From positions 248,001 to 312,000 of the forward strand of contig NZ_CP062788.1 in the NCBI RefSeq assembly GCF_025136295.1: DNA of 64,000 bases, read 5' to 3'. Under the pieces are notes generated by a model, which saw nothing but the letters and a program-made list of their open reading frames with translations, was not told where the DNA came from and made no database searches. Source of the stretch: Aestuariispira ectoiniformans. GTDB lineage: Bacteria; Pseudomonadota; Alphaproteobacteria; UBA8366; Aestuariispiraceae. The translations under genes and the position numbers were made by a program. Below, in pieces: positions 56,488-60,260 of this stretch (position 1 is the first letter of the stretch; every line of letters starts with the position of its first letter).

Positions 56488-56577
56488 GCCCGATCCGGCA
56501 AAGCTGCTGTGCCGGGCGCATGATTGACGCCGCCCGGCCCCCTTCCTAATCTGGCCGAAATTGGGGAGGCCGAATCG

Positions 56578-57381
56578 TTGGAACACCTGTTGCTGATCAA
56601 GATTGCCGTGTCCATCGGCACCGTCCTGGGCCTGTCGCTCGTCGCGGAACGGGTCAGTCCACGCCTTGCCGGTCTGTTATCGGGCTATCCGTTGGGCACC
56701 GCCATCGCACTTTTTTTCATCGGTATTGAAAACAGCGCCGGTTTTGCGGCTGAAAGCGCAGTTTACACCCTGCCCGGCCTCGGGGCAGCCCTCTGTCTGG
56801 CCGCCGCCTATTACGCGGGCAGCCGCCTGATACAGGGGAAACCCGCCGTCATCCTCGCAGCCATCGCCGCGATCATCGGTTTTATCGTGGTTTCCGCAGC
56901 CTTCGCGGAACTGCCCGCGCGGCTATCCATTGCAGTTGCCGTCCCGCTGGCGGCCATCCTTCTGTTCGCCTATCTGTTTCGCCGGATTGAAAACGCCCCG
57001 GCCCTGCGCCGCAGCCGCCTCGGGCCGAAGGTTCTGGCCTTCCGCGCCGCACTGGCGACGGCGGTCGTTCTGGCGATCACCGGATCGGCAGCGCTGATCG
57101 GACCGGAATGGGCCGGTCTGCTATCGGCCTTCCCCAGCAGCGCCTTCCCGCTTTTCCTTGTGATCCATTGGACCTATGGCGGGCCGGCGGTCCATACCAT
57201 CATCAAGAATTATCCGGCGGGCATGGGGGCGCTTGTCACCTACAGCCTGTCGGTCGCCCTCACCTATAACAGCCTCGGCGTCGGCCCGGGGACGATCGTC
57301 TCTTTCGGCTTTGCCACCGTCTATCTGGTTGGTTTTTCGGTGATCGGGCAGATGCTGGCGCGGCGCCGGGCCATGGCCTGA
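56578..57381 (+). CDS. Integral membrane protein, unknown family
   Basis: A 267-residue protein with about eight hydrophobic helices in two similar halves: ERVSPRLAGLLSGYPLGTAI near the start and IGPEWAGLLSAFPSSAFPLF in the second half. This repeat of a (W/R)LAGLLS-(G/A)-(Y/F)P motif points to internal duplication. TTG at 56578 is taken as the start because GGGGAGG lies 8 bases upstream. The upstream ATG at 56524 has no site. The motif pattern suggests a transporter-like protein, but no function can be given. Confidence 0.82.
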   Translation: MEHLLLIKIAVSIGTVLGLSLVAERVSPRLAGLLSGYPLGTAIALFFIGIENSAGFAAESAVYTLPGLGAALCLAAAYYAGSRLIQGKPAVILAAIAAIIGFIVVSAAFAELPARLSIAVAVPLAAILLFAYLFRRIENAPALRRSRLGPKVLAFRAALATAVVLAITGSAALIGPEWAGLLSAFPSSAFPLFLVIHWTYGGPAVHTIIKNYPAGMGALVTYSLSVALTYNSLGVGPGTIVSFGFATVYLVGFSVIGQMLARRRAMA

Positions 57382-57397: not shown

Positions 57398-58597
57398 TTA
57401 TTCGTGACGGTTGCGGAAGGGGCTCATCCGATAGGTGCCCAGCAATTTCATCTTGGAGGTGAAATACTGCAATTCCTCCAGCGCCCGGTCGACCGCCTTG
57501 TCCGCCGGATGGCCTTCGATTTCCGCATAGAACTGTGCGGTGCTGTAGTCCGCCACAGAAATATAGCTTTCCAGTTTGACGAAGTTGACCCCGTTGGTGG
57601 CGAAACCGCCCATAGCCTTGTAAAGGCCCGCAGGCACGCTGCGCAGGGTGAAGACCAGACTGGTCACGCAGGGGCCGGAGCGCGGATCGGGTTCGATCCG
57701 GGTGCGCGACATCACCACGAAACGGGTGACATTGCCGATCTTGTCTTCAATCCGGCCACGCAGGTTTTCCAGGCCATAGGTTTCCCCGGCAAGACTGGAC
57801 GCAACCGCCGCCACCGTCGGATCACCCAGTTCTGCGACCAGCTTGGCCGCCCCGGCGGTGTCCGCTTCCTTGACCGGTTTGATGCCCAGTTCCCGCAGGG
57901 TTTCCCGGCATTGCGCCAGGGCCTGGGTGTGACTGCGCGCCTCCTTGACCGTTTCCAGCGTCGCCCCCTTGGGCGCCAGCAGGTGATGATGCACAGGCTG
58001 AAAATGTTCCGCCACGATATAAAGGTTGGATTCCGGCAGCAGATGGTGAATATCCGCCACACGCCCGCCAAGCGAGTTTTCAATCGGGATCATGGCAAGA
58101 CCTGCGCGCCCTTCCTCCACCGCCAGGAAGGCATCCTCAAAGGATGGACAGGACAACGGCTCCATATGGGGAAAGGCTTCGCGGCACGCCAGATGGGAAT
58201 AGGCGCCGGGCACGCCCTGATAGGCGATTACCGGATTATCCTCTGCCGGGTTCGAAATCATTGCCGTTCCTCCATAGTCACTGTCAGTATTGAAATAGGT
58301 TTGTGACGATCCCGTTCCGCCGGAAAACCGGCCTTCCCGGACATTGTTGGCAAAACCGGCCCGGCCTGCCGCCCCTTGCGGGGCCGGGCTGTCGATGACG
58401 GTTTGCCCCAACAGCAGCCACTCCACAGACGTTCCCGTCGCCGAGGCCAAGGCCATCAGAACATCGCGGGACGGTTCGCGGTGCCCCTGCTCCCACCGGT
58501 TCACGGTCGAATGAGACACATCCAGGCGCGCCGCCAATGCCGCCTGGGACAAACCGGCCGCACGCCGGGCCTGCAGAATTCTTTTCGCCACTGTCAT
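57398..58597 (-). CDS. pheA: Helix-turn-helix / prephenate dehydratase fusion with ACT domain
   Basis: A single open frame of 399 residues. Residues 1-62 are an XRE-type helix-turn-helix (ARRAAGLSQAALAARLDVSH, STVNRWEQGHREPSRDVLMA). Residues 65-115 are a low-complexity linker. Residues 118-295 are prephenate dehydratase (VIAYQGVPGAYSHLACREAF, MIPIENSLGGRVADIHHLL, catalytic GNVTRFVVMSRT). Residues 305-385 are the Phe-binding ACT domain (GLYKAMGGFATNGVNFVKLE). The enzyme makes phenylpyruvate for phenylalanine synthesis. An internal ATG at 58261 with GGAGGA 6 bases upstream would give a normal 287-residue enzyme. The ATG at 58597 has no Shine-Dalgarno site. Both products may be made. Confidence 0.9.
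   Translation of the reverse strand: MTVAKRILQARRAAGLSQAALAARLDVSHSTVNRWEQGHREPSRDVLMALASATGTSVEWLLLGQTVIDSPAPQGAAGRAGFANNVREGRFSGGTGSSQTYFNTDSDYGGTAMISNPAEDNPVIAYQGVPGAYSHLACREAFPHMEPLSCPSFEDAFLAVEEGRAGLAMIPIENSLGGRVADIHHLLPESNLYIVAEHFQPVHHHLLAPKGATLETVKEARSHTQALAQCRETLRELGIKPVKEADTAGAAKLVAELGDPTVAAVASSLAGETYGLENLRGRIEDKIGNVTRFVVMSRTRIEPDPRSGPCVTSLVFTLRSVPAGLYKAMGGFATNGVNFVKLESYISVADYSTAQFYAEIEGHPADKAVDRALEELQYFTSKMKLLGTYRMSPFRNRHE
58259..58273 (-). promoter_or_regulatory. Internal ribosome binding site and start in pheA
   Basis: GGAGGA (plus-strand 58268-58273) lies 6 bases before an in-frame ATG (58259-58261) whose product MISNPAEDNPVIAYQG is the usual N-terminus of a stand-alone prephenate dehydratase. 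This is the best Shine-Dalgarno match in the gene and decides where the plain enzyme would start. Confidence 0.75.
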
Positions 58598-58605
58598 GAG
58601 ATAAG

Positions 58606-58634
58606 GGCCTAGCGCAGCCAGAACCCCCTGTCAA
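58606..58634 (-). promoter_or_regulatory. Candidate pheA promoter with perfect -35 box
   Basis: On the minus strand TTGACA (58629-58634) is followed after 17 bases by TAGGCC (58606-58611), a poor -10 box. Transcription would start about 58600, next to the ATG at 58597, giving a leaderless or nearly leaderless message for the helix-turn-helix form. A weak -10 box with binding sites upstream would suit an activated promoter. Confidence 0.4.
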
Positions 58635-58677: not shown

Positions 58678-58692
58678 GTGCAAATTTTGCAC
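58678..58692. promoter_or_regulatory. Operator-like inverted repeat 2 upstream of HTH-pheA
   Basis: Perfect inverted repeat GTGCAAA-T-TTTGCAC. Read on the minus strand with its flanks it is TTGTGCA, 5 bases, TGCACGA, the same half-site as repeat 1. The two repeats lie about three helical turns apart, fitting binding of two regulator dimers on one DNA face. Confidence 0.65.
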
Positions 58693-58696
58693 AATG

Positions 58697-59401
58697 TCAG
58701 CCAAATCGGCGCAAATAGGCCATGGCATCATTCAATTGGGACATCCGCTCATGATCCCCGACCTCGCTGTCGGGGTGATGGATCGTCGCCAGCATGCGGA
58801 AACGGGACCGGATCGCACTCATGTCCGGACGCTGCGACGGCGCGAAGCCCAGAACGAAAAGCGCGTCTTCCCGGCTTCGGATGCCATGCGGCAGAACCTC
58901 GAAGGACAGCGCCCCCACGATGGACCGCAAACGGCTGACCTGCTCATCGCGCGCCTCCAGACGCTCCCGCGCGGAGGGGCGGGCGGCATCTTCCAACGTG
59001 ATGGAAAGCTTTCCCCGGTCCAGCTCGAGCGCAAGCGCCAGGGCCTTGCGGATCGTCAGCACATCAAAGCCCGCCGGCATCCGCACCTGTAAACGGGGCT
59101 TGCGCCGCCAGGGTTTGCCCGCACTGGGGCCCGACTTCAGGATCACTGTTTCGCGGTCTTCGCCATTGGGCTCGCCGGGATCGGGCATATTTTCGATCAC
59201 CACCTCCGGCATGGTCAGGATGACGGAACGCGCAATATCGCCGACATTCACCTTGCGGCGTTCCGCCAGCGCCGTCACGGCATCGCGAAAGTCACTGGCG
59301 CAGGGCACGGCATAGGATGTTTTACGCTGGGCAGGCGCCTTGGAAGCATTGCGGATCGCATCAACCAAACCCTCTGATTGACTGGAATTATTCCTCGGCA
59401 T
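58697..59401 (-). CDS. J-domain-like protein
   Basis: A 234-residue protein. The C-terminal 60 residues follow the J-domain pattern: ALFVLGFAPSQRPDMSAIRS, then FRMLATIHHPDSEVGDHERM with the HPD tripeptide, and LNDAMAYLRR. The N-terminal region (residues 35-150) is unassigned, and TIRKALALALELDRGKLSI resembles no family known to me. J-domains stimulate DnaK ATPase. The target is unknown. ATG at 59401 is preferred over 59428. It lies immediately upstream of the HTH-pheA operators. Confidence 0.8.
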   Translation of the reverse strand: MPRNNSSQSEGLVDAIRNASKAPAQRKTSYAVPCASDFRDAVTALAERRKVNVGDIARSVILTMPEVVIENMPDPGEPNGEDRETVILKSGPSAGKPWRRKPRLQVRMPAGFDVLTIRKALALALELDRGKLSITLEDAARPSARERLEARDEQVSRLRSIVGALSFEVLPHGIRSREDALFVLGFAPSQRPDMSAIRSRFRMLATIHHPDSEVGDHERMSQLNDAMAYLRRFG

Positions 59402-59711
59402 GGTTTGCGCCGCCGCCCCCTTGATCACTCGCCTGACCCCTTGCTATTCACCAATATCACCGCATCATCTAGTAGCAAAAACTACATATGTTGCTAAATA
59501 TGCCATGTGTTCGCAAAGAAACAAGGTTTACTTTAAGGCCATCTCTCCAGATAGCAGTATACGCAAAGAGCCACCGTTCACCAATGCGCGCACCCTTCAT
59601 ACGCGTATTTTTTATGCAGTAGTAAGCTATTGGGAATACTCGATAATGGCGAATTTAAACCCCATCGCGATCCCTTTAACGTTGTATTTTCGCTGTTCAA
59701 ATCCCGACAAT

Positions 59712-59918: not shown

Positions 59919-60260
59919 ATGCCGCACCCGACCGATGTCCATGTTGGACGCAAAGTACGTGAAGCACGTGCTGCAAAGGGTATGAGTCAGGAACAGCTTG
60001 GCAAGCTGCTTGGCGTTAGTTTTCAGCAAGTTCAGAAGTATGAAAAAGGAACCAACCGCATTGGCAGCAGCCGCCTTTGGGATATTTCCAAGGCTCTGGA
60101 AACGCCAATCACTTATTTCTTTGAAGAAATAGAAGAGGCGGGCACCGAACAACGGTCCCTACCGCGACGCACAATCGAATTGGCCAAGCAAATCGATTCC
60201 ATCGAAGACGACAATGTGCGCAATCAGGTGCTGAACCTGATCAAGGCCTGCGCCCACTAG
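59919..60260 (+). CDS. XRE-family transcriptional regulator
   Basis: A 113-residue protein with an N-terminal helix-turn-helix (VREARAAKGMSQEQLGKLLG, SFQQVQKYEKGTNRIGSSRL) of the kind abundant in Alphaproteobacteria, followed by a short helical tail (TIELAKQIDSIEDDNVRNQV) probably used for dimerisation. AGGAG lies 9 bases upstream of the ATG. Target genes are unknown. The structured upstream leader may be autoregulated. Confidence 0.93.
   Translation: MPHPTDVHVGRKVREARAAKGMSQEQLGKLLGVSFQQVQKYEKGTNRIGSSRLWDISKALETPITYFFEEIEEAGTEQRSLPRRTIELAKQIDSIEDDNVRNQVLNLIKACAH

Follow-up and report, generated by a model that had tools for sequence, protein, structure and literature searches.

The 64,000-nucleotide stretch of Aestuariispira ectoiniformans DNA analysed here (the window) contains a gene in which the DNA-binding head of an XRE regulator, a linker and a complete prephenate dehydratase with its ACT domain are joined in a single frame. 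We describe a real, conserved natural fusion, and the comparison of its sequences across genomes points to an enzyme that is most likely its own regulator. The explanation that we consider the best overall, and to which we give somewhat better than even chances, is that of a working dehydratase which gained a DNA-binding head and now controls its own production. The features on which this explanation draws are collected in Table 1.

Table 1. Features of the fused gene and of its upstream region (positions in the window).
Feature	Position	Strand	Basis
HTH–linker–prephenate dehydratase–ACT gene, 399 aa	57398..58597	minus	stop-free ORF, profile matches; kept in 16 loci
XRE helix-turn-helix head, residues 1-64	58406..58597	minus	Pfam HTH_3 8-61; confident model to ~residue 60
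Linker (residues 65-112) with variable length and sequence; disorder predicted	58262..58405	minus	alignment, model
Prephenate dehydratase catalytic domain, residues 124-299	57701..58228	minus	Pfam PDT
ACT domain, ~residues 308-390	57428..57676	minus	limits from model and 6vh5 alignment
Operator candidate 1, GTGCAAAATTTGCAC	58678..58692	minus	palindrome search; counterpart in G003
Operator candidate 2, TTGTGCAATGTGCACAA	58647..58663	minus	palindrome search; counterparts in G003, G005
-35 box TTGACA, 37 bases before ATG	58629..58634	minus	promoter spacing
Candidate -10, TAGGCC, weak	58606..58611	minus	promoter spacing; RNA start predicted at or next to ATG
Internal ATG, codon 113, candidate start of headless enzyme	58259..58261	minus	equivalent ATG in 12/16 loci
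GGAGGA, Shine-Dalgarno of internal start	58268..58273	minus	-9.3 kcal/mol; 6 bases between

The original prediction, made from the letters of the window, described one unbroken frame through the helix-turn-helix, the linker and the dehydratase-ACT part, and this was borne out by the 399 codons without internal stop and by the Pfam and NCBIfam matches. The Pfam profile HTH_3 matches residues 8-61 (E 1.1e-16, 61 bits against a cut-off of 23), which places the head among the Cro/C1-type helix-turn-helix domains of XRE regulators, and PDT matches residues 124-299 (E 4.4e-55, 186.7 bits against 25.2). The NCBIfam model for prephenate dehydratase, PRK11899, matches residues 122-397 with 415.8 bits (cut-off 359) and, since this match reaches residue 397, the ACT part is included. 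Both profiles and motifs thus identify the protein as a prephenate dehydratase: TRF, which we take to be a catalytic motif, and LYK, GGFATNG and LESY, presumably the motifs of the phenylalanine site of the ACT domain, are kept in all 16 fused genes found. The last three are also present in 6vh5, the Brucella dehydratase solved with phenylalanine, which is the top solved relative of the enzyme part and whose alignment supports these assignments. The structure predicted from 13 sequences (mean pLDDT 80.5, pTM 0.64) has a confident head, a mostly confident enzyme and, between them, linker residues 67-111 with pLDDT below 50; the fold of the head matches, among others, that of the P22 c2 repressor (65 columns, rmsd 1.1). 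A profile search for related enzymes in the genome of the window (G000, 4.36 Mb in one contig) also gave a weak second dehydratase-like match at G000:C1:911274-911705 (L002), in a 254-aa frame whose PDT score is 23.7 bits alone and 26.3 with its neighbours, against the cut-off of 25.2.

Homologues carrying both domains, a search for which had been proposed together with the original prediction, were found in 14/14 genomes searched of the family of the window, including Aestuariispira insulae, Marivibrio halodurans and a Hwanghaeella (genera all assigned to Aestuariispiraceae by NCBI), and in 2/2 genomes of f68, a family of another order. None of the 16 fused loci has a stop or a frameshift between the domains, all being open through head and linker; stop-free linkers would be expected by chance at ~10^-6.9, as calculated from base composition over the 13 loci that are not near-copies. 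This conservation rules out a chance or misassembled fusion. The heads are constrained, with dN/dS values of 0-0.50 in six close pairs (the seventh pair is saturated), and the linkers are looser, at 0-0.92 on an uncertain alignment.

The distribution of the fusion was followed in 43 genomes of the order and 385 genomes of the class, 296 of the latter having a dehydratase match. The other three families of the order comprise 29 genomes, 23 of them with a dehydratase match, and none of these 23 matches reaches the head; neither was a head-like match found at E 0.001 next to these matches on their contigs. One of the 23, in G018, is a 356-residue frame with two TGA. We also considered other long frames of the class as further fusions, with 20 stretches (two from f68 and 18 others) taken among the class-wide matches listed, and rejected them: a tblastn search of the head against 52 loci matched seven, namely L033-L035 of the family of the window and the two f68 genes, each twice, so that among the tested stretches only the f68 genes matched the head. 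When the head alone was searched against the 385 genomes, the fused heads of G000, G003, G005, G106 and G225 ranked as the top five. Those of f68 are 53-56% identical to the head of the window, a higher value than for any stand-alone XRE domain recovered there, the best of which is 44% identical and lies in a 240-aa frame. Genus g5 has heads whose scores do not exceed those of stand-alone XRE domains (8.3e-9 for G009, with G004 missing at 1e-8), and because of this a single origin of every fused head is not proved.

The surroundings of the gene bear on where the head came from. Among 26 plain loci, kdsB lies upstream in the same direction in 24, with 752-872 bases from its first aligned base to that of the enzyme, and nudC faces the gene from downstream in 17. 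Both f68 genomes have this arrangement, with kdsB at ~1095 bases, and from this longer distance it follows that head and linker (~100 codons) are extra with respect to the plain genes. The family of the window has instead a J-domain-like gene upstream of the fused gene in 13/14 genomes, the contig of G005 ending there, and nudC downstream in 9/14; nudC was not seen in the 3-4 kb downstream of G001, G003, G006 and G007, nor in the shorter downstream sequence of G002. A tree of 43 enzyme rows groups the fused enzymes together, save that the plain enzyme of G330 (L083) stands beside the fused one of G225 (L079), and the fused enzymes of the family group with another order, apart from the plain enzymes of their own order. 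This tree could reflect passage of the fused gene from one order to another, or a single gain followed by losses. A further scenario, in which pheA landed beside an XRE gene already following the J-like gene, was rejected, the head being unmatched there in 21 loci from outside the family.

Other genes of the window deserve mention as observations in their own right. The J-domain-like protein (58697-59428, minus strand) has an HPD motif and no Pfam or NCBIfam match; its gene is matched in 37/43 genomes of the order and, outside the family, adjoins other genes. Another XRE protein, standing alone and 113 aa long, is encoded ~1.3 kb from the fused gene (59919-60260, plus strand). A convergent gene (56524-57381, plus strand) encodes a hydrophobic 285-aa protein with no Pfam or NCBIfam match; the ends of this gene and of the fused gene are 16 bases apart, and a relative of this protein lies at the same place in G005.

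The first ATG (58597) was originally described as having no ribosome binding site, and this agrees with the weak anti-Shine-Dalgarno pairing calculated for it, -2.4 kcal/mol. The mean over the 16 fused genes is -2.1 kcal/mol, with values of -5.4 or below only in G004 and G006, the latter having the strongest Shine-Dalgarno at a first start among the fused genes (-7.3). What precedes this ATG is a recurrent promoter spacing: TTGAC stands 35 or 37 bases before the first ATG in 9/16 fused genes and at the same spacing in 0/40 other ORFs of the window, the starts of which were taken as first ATGs and are not proven starts. Six of these nine genomes belong to one genus, g5, which we count against the best explanation. 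Weaker cases are found in G007 (TTGTTA at 35) and G106 (TTGATT at 36), the spacing is absent in G002, G006, G008, G005 and G225, and a consensus promoter scan reported no promoter here, the candidate -10 failing the rule of the scan. Given the position of the -35 box and a spacer of ~17 bases, the RNA would start at or next to the AUG; the message is thus probably leaderless, which would account for the first ATG having no ribosome site. An Rfam search returned no RNA elements, and no unusual fold was seen at either start.

Leaderless messages have been catalogued in related bacteria: the available parts of the two reports count 375 leaderless genes in Caulobacter (9.6% of coding sequences), translated about as well as the others (PMC4117421), and 171 in Sinorhizobium (PMC3616915). 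Such genes are therefore not rare in alphaproteobacteria, and the long form is not called into question by the lack of a ribosome site. The starts of plain pheA genes in relatives (e.g., L017, L019, L022 and L024) have weak Shine-Dalgarno pairing too, with a mean of -3.6 over 26 loci, and these genes may be leaderless as well. That most genomes have no Shine-Dalgarno at the first ATG could also mean that only the short product is made, the frame upstream of it being a remnant that is decaying or goes untranslated, but this we regard as very improbable in view of the 16 open loci with constrained heads, the leaderless promoter spacing in nine of them and the four genomes that have no ATG in the linker.

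Upstream of the promoter, the gene of the window is preceded, within 95 bases, by the two palindromes of the form GTGCA-N3/5-TGCAC listed in Table 1. The pattern GTGCA-N3-6-TGCAC occurs at seven sites in the whole of G000, with two lying no more than 95 bases from the ATG (six sites for the reversed-pattern control), at ten sites in G003, two of them at the equivalent place (control one), and at eight in G005, one of them at the equivalent place (control 12). By a Poisson calculation, two sites would fall in such a region with a probability of ~1e-8 to 3e-8, for a pattern picked after viewing G000. The palindromes are thereby shared with two sister genera, and all three genomes have the recognition helix SHST(V/L)NRWE. 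The six genomes of genus g5, with the helix TQST(I/V)ALWE, have TATGAGAA-N10-TTCTCATA upstream of the fused gene, exact in two of the six (once each in G010 and G012, at the fused gene) and, by eye, in imperfect versions in the other four. G006, with TQSTVNRWE, has GTTATGCGCGCATAAC once in its genome, at the fused gene, and G002 has ACGAATATTATTCGT upstream of it (counted at the locus only), whereas the upstream regions of G008, G001 and G225 lack palindromes of the tested kind. By genome-wide count, at least five genomes thus have rare palindromes at the promoter. The strength of the palindromes by itself falls mostly within that of shuffled sequences (e.g., 25/300 in G000 and 95/300 in G005), so the case for these putative operators is one of position, recurrence and rarity. 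Compared by eye, recognition helix and candidate operator appear to change together between lineages.

These differences between recognition helices, and the genomes in which the palindrome is missing, would also suit a head that no longer binds DNA and is kept as an N-terminal extension that helps the protein to fold, to stay stable or to form oligomers. We consider such a role quite improbable, since the head is constrained and has good HTH profile scores, and since the rare palindromes recur at the promoter in at least five genomes. No regulon emerged from the genome-wide counts, the totals being no higher than the control in G000 (7 vs 6) and G005 (8 vs 12), and by eye no aromatic-pathway gene was recognized among the translations at the five other GTGCA sites of G000. 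The target is therefore probably the fused gene itself, and the enzyme probably controls its own gene.

The position of the candidate operators bears on the sign of this control. The centre of the nearer one lies ~58 bases before the ATG in G000, upstream of the -35 box, and at ~-48 in G003 and ~-39 in G005, against or over the -35 region. The same fusion and operators could hence serve to activate the promoter when phenylalanine is scarce; the placement in G000, which we count against the best explanation, and the weakness of the candidate -10 speak for this alternative. However, the operators of G003 and G005 suit repression better, and a biosynthetic enzyme that activates itself needs a basal start, so that activation seems to us rather unlikely.

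The second feature emphasized in the original prediction, an internal ATG preceded by GGAGGA, also holds (Table 1). An in-frame ATG stands 9-20 codons ahead of the enzyme core in twelve of the 16 fused genes, its pairing ranging from -5.4 to -10.3 kcal/mol, whereas only 58/357 in-frame internal ATGs of the other ORFs of the window pair at or below -5.4 (Mann-Whitney p 4e-7 with the 12 starts, 7e-6 with the nine that remain without near-copies, and 2e-4 when all 19 linker ATGs are counted). The starts of plain pheA genes pair more weakly as well (5/23 reach -5.4 or lower; p 3e-5 with the 12 internal starts and 2e-4 with the nine), in a set of 26 loci minus three near-copies in which other related rows remain. 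Since these plain starts are weaker, the internal site looks strengthened after the fusion rather than being a leftover, and the passive survival of an ancestral Shine-Dalgarno is the less likely account. The GGAG of G005 is in a different reading frame from that of G000 and G003, though its distance to the ATG is similar.

The internal Shine-Dalgarno might act as a translational pause between the domains instead of as a start, which would affect the second product only and is compatible with the best explanation. The site lies at the domain border, and intragenic sites of this kind in Caulobacter are described as mainly for pausing in the available part of that study, which nevertheless also maps 75 alternative starts (PMC4117421). 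With an in-frame ATG following at the enzyme start in 12/16 loci, we think a pure pause unlikely, if far from negligible.

Contrary to these 12 genes, those of G002, G006, G008 and G106 have no ATG in the linker. A linker GTG with moderate pairing is present in G006 (-7.1) and G002 (-5.2), only weak GTGs in G008, and neither ATG, GTG nor TTG in G106, the genome of which is 68% complete. Each of the four genomes has one dehydratase match and so, without a linker ATG, the long form is probably catalytic; the fusion itself would probably be the enzyme in all four, most firmly in G106 and G008. This affects the division of labour originally proposed, by which the long form would be a phenylalanine-sensing regulator only and the short form the enzyme. 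Much of what that interpretation requires was found, i.e., a conserved fusion, operator-like palindromes, ACT motifs in 16/16 genes and an internal ATG with a Shine-Dalgarno in 12/16 that is stronger than both the background and the 23 plain pheA starts, and the GTGs of G006 and G002 could serve as starts, G106 being an incomplete genome. As a general rule, however, it is not supported: the four genes without a linker ATG in genomes with one dehydratase match, the linker of G106 in particular, and the presence of TRF in all 16 genes leave it with a low probability. A second, headless product is likely where the 12 genes keep the internal ATG, and the two-product aspect of the system therefore depends on the lineage.

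According to the explanation that we prefer, a prephenate dehydratase would have acquired a phage-repressor-type DNA-binding head, the full-length protein being translated from a leaderless mRNA, beginning at its first AUG. The enzyme oligomer would pair the heads, allowing them to bind the palindromic operators just upstream of their own -35 box, and phenylalanine, which such an enzyme-autoregulator probably senses, would upon binding to the ACT domains shift the arrangement of the heads across the flexible linker and so adjust transcription. Repression when phenylalanine is plentiful would be the most likely sign, favoured because of end-product logic. In those lineages with the internal Shine-Dalgarno and ATG, the same mRNA would also yield a headless enzyme, whose subunits, we infer, could dilute the heads. 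A more elaborate version, which we put forward tentatively and consider possible at best, is a two-product circuit in which the leaderless start gives the enzyme and phenylalanine-gated regulator, the internal start gives the headless enzyme, and operator occupancy depends on the proportion in which the two enter mixed oligomers; operator and recognition helix would have been rewired together several times, and G006 would have exchanged the internal ATG for a strong Shine-Dalgarno at the first start.

Enzymes with a DNA-binding head are already known as a kind. The P-protein, the chorismate mutase-prephenate dehydratase of E. coli (PheA), also has an N-terminal domain fused to a dehydratase-ACT part and a similar total length, but in the fused gene this domain is XRE and not chorismate mutase: the P-protein model PRK10622 scores 132.6 against a cut-off of 577, on the dehydratase part only, and no mutase match was found. 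BirA, NadR and PutA are DNA-binding trigger enzymes, each of them an enzyme and a regulator of its own pathway in one protein, as predicted here, whereas they are other enzymes with other DNA-binding folds or arrangements. TyrR, an ACT-containing regulator of aromatic amino acid genes, likewise links a DNA-binding domain to an ACT domain for aromatic amino acid sensing (predicted in our case), but it is not a dehydratase and has another architecture. In the literature searched, consisting of titles and abstract openings of open-access journal papers, no description of an XRE–prephenate dehydratase fusion was found, in keeping with the original remark that no described system of this kind was known.

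The closest precedent is BzdR from Azoarcus, which, in the available part of its description, consists of an XRE head and a shikimate-kinase-like domain that has lost catalysis, and controls a catabolic operon (PMC3602430). The same source reports Q1, a synthetic chimera of the BzdR head and E. coli shikimate kinase I, which catalysed and bound DNA; the active chimera gave no response to substrate in vivo, but a version without catalytic activity responded (PMC3602430). This non-response of Q1 in vivo is counted against our best explanation. As far as these available parts go, the fused protein shares with BzdR and Q1 an XRE head, a linker, the fold of an aromatic-pathway enzyme and several operator regions (here candidates) at the promoter, and differs from them in being a natural fusion, in combining a dehydratase with an allosteric ACT domain of its own, and in being the main or only copy in the genome. 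PRK08154, the model of the BzdR family, is absent among the NCBIfam matches of the fused protein, whose C-terminal part is dehydratase-ACT. An enzyme with a separate allosteric domain would presumably escape the conflict between sensing and catalysis seen in Q1.

Regulators are thought to arise when enzymes gain DNA-binding heads, and the XRE-enzyme intermediate described in the available part of the published work is a synthetic one (PMC3602430). The fusion presented here occurs in nature and is conserved; its enzyme, which has an allosteric sensor as a separate part, is probably still required to function. Given 16 orthologues, several types of candidate operator, and lineages with and without the internal start, the path from enzyme to regulator and the joint change of head and operator become testable. 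If the two-product circuit is true, the gene would be the natural, still catalytic counterpart of the hand-built "missing link" of BzdR. The fused dehydratase would also provide a compact phenylalanine-responsive part.
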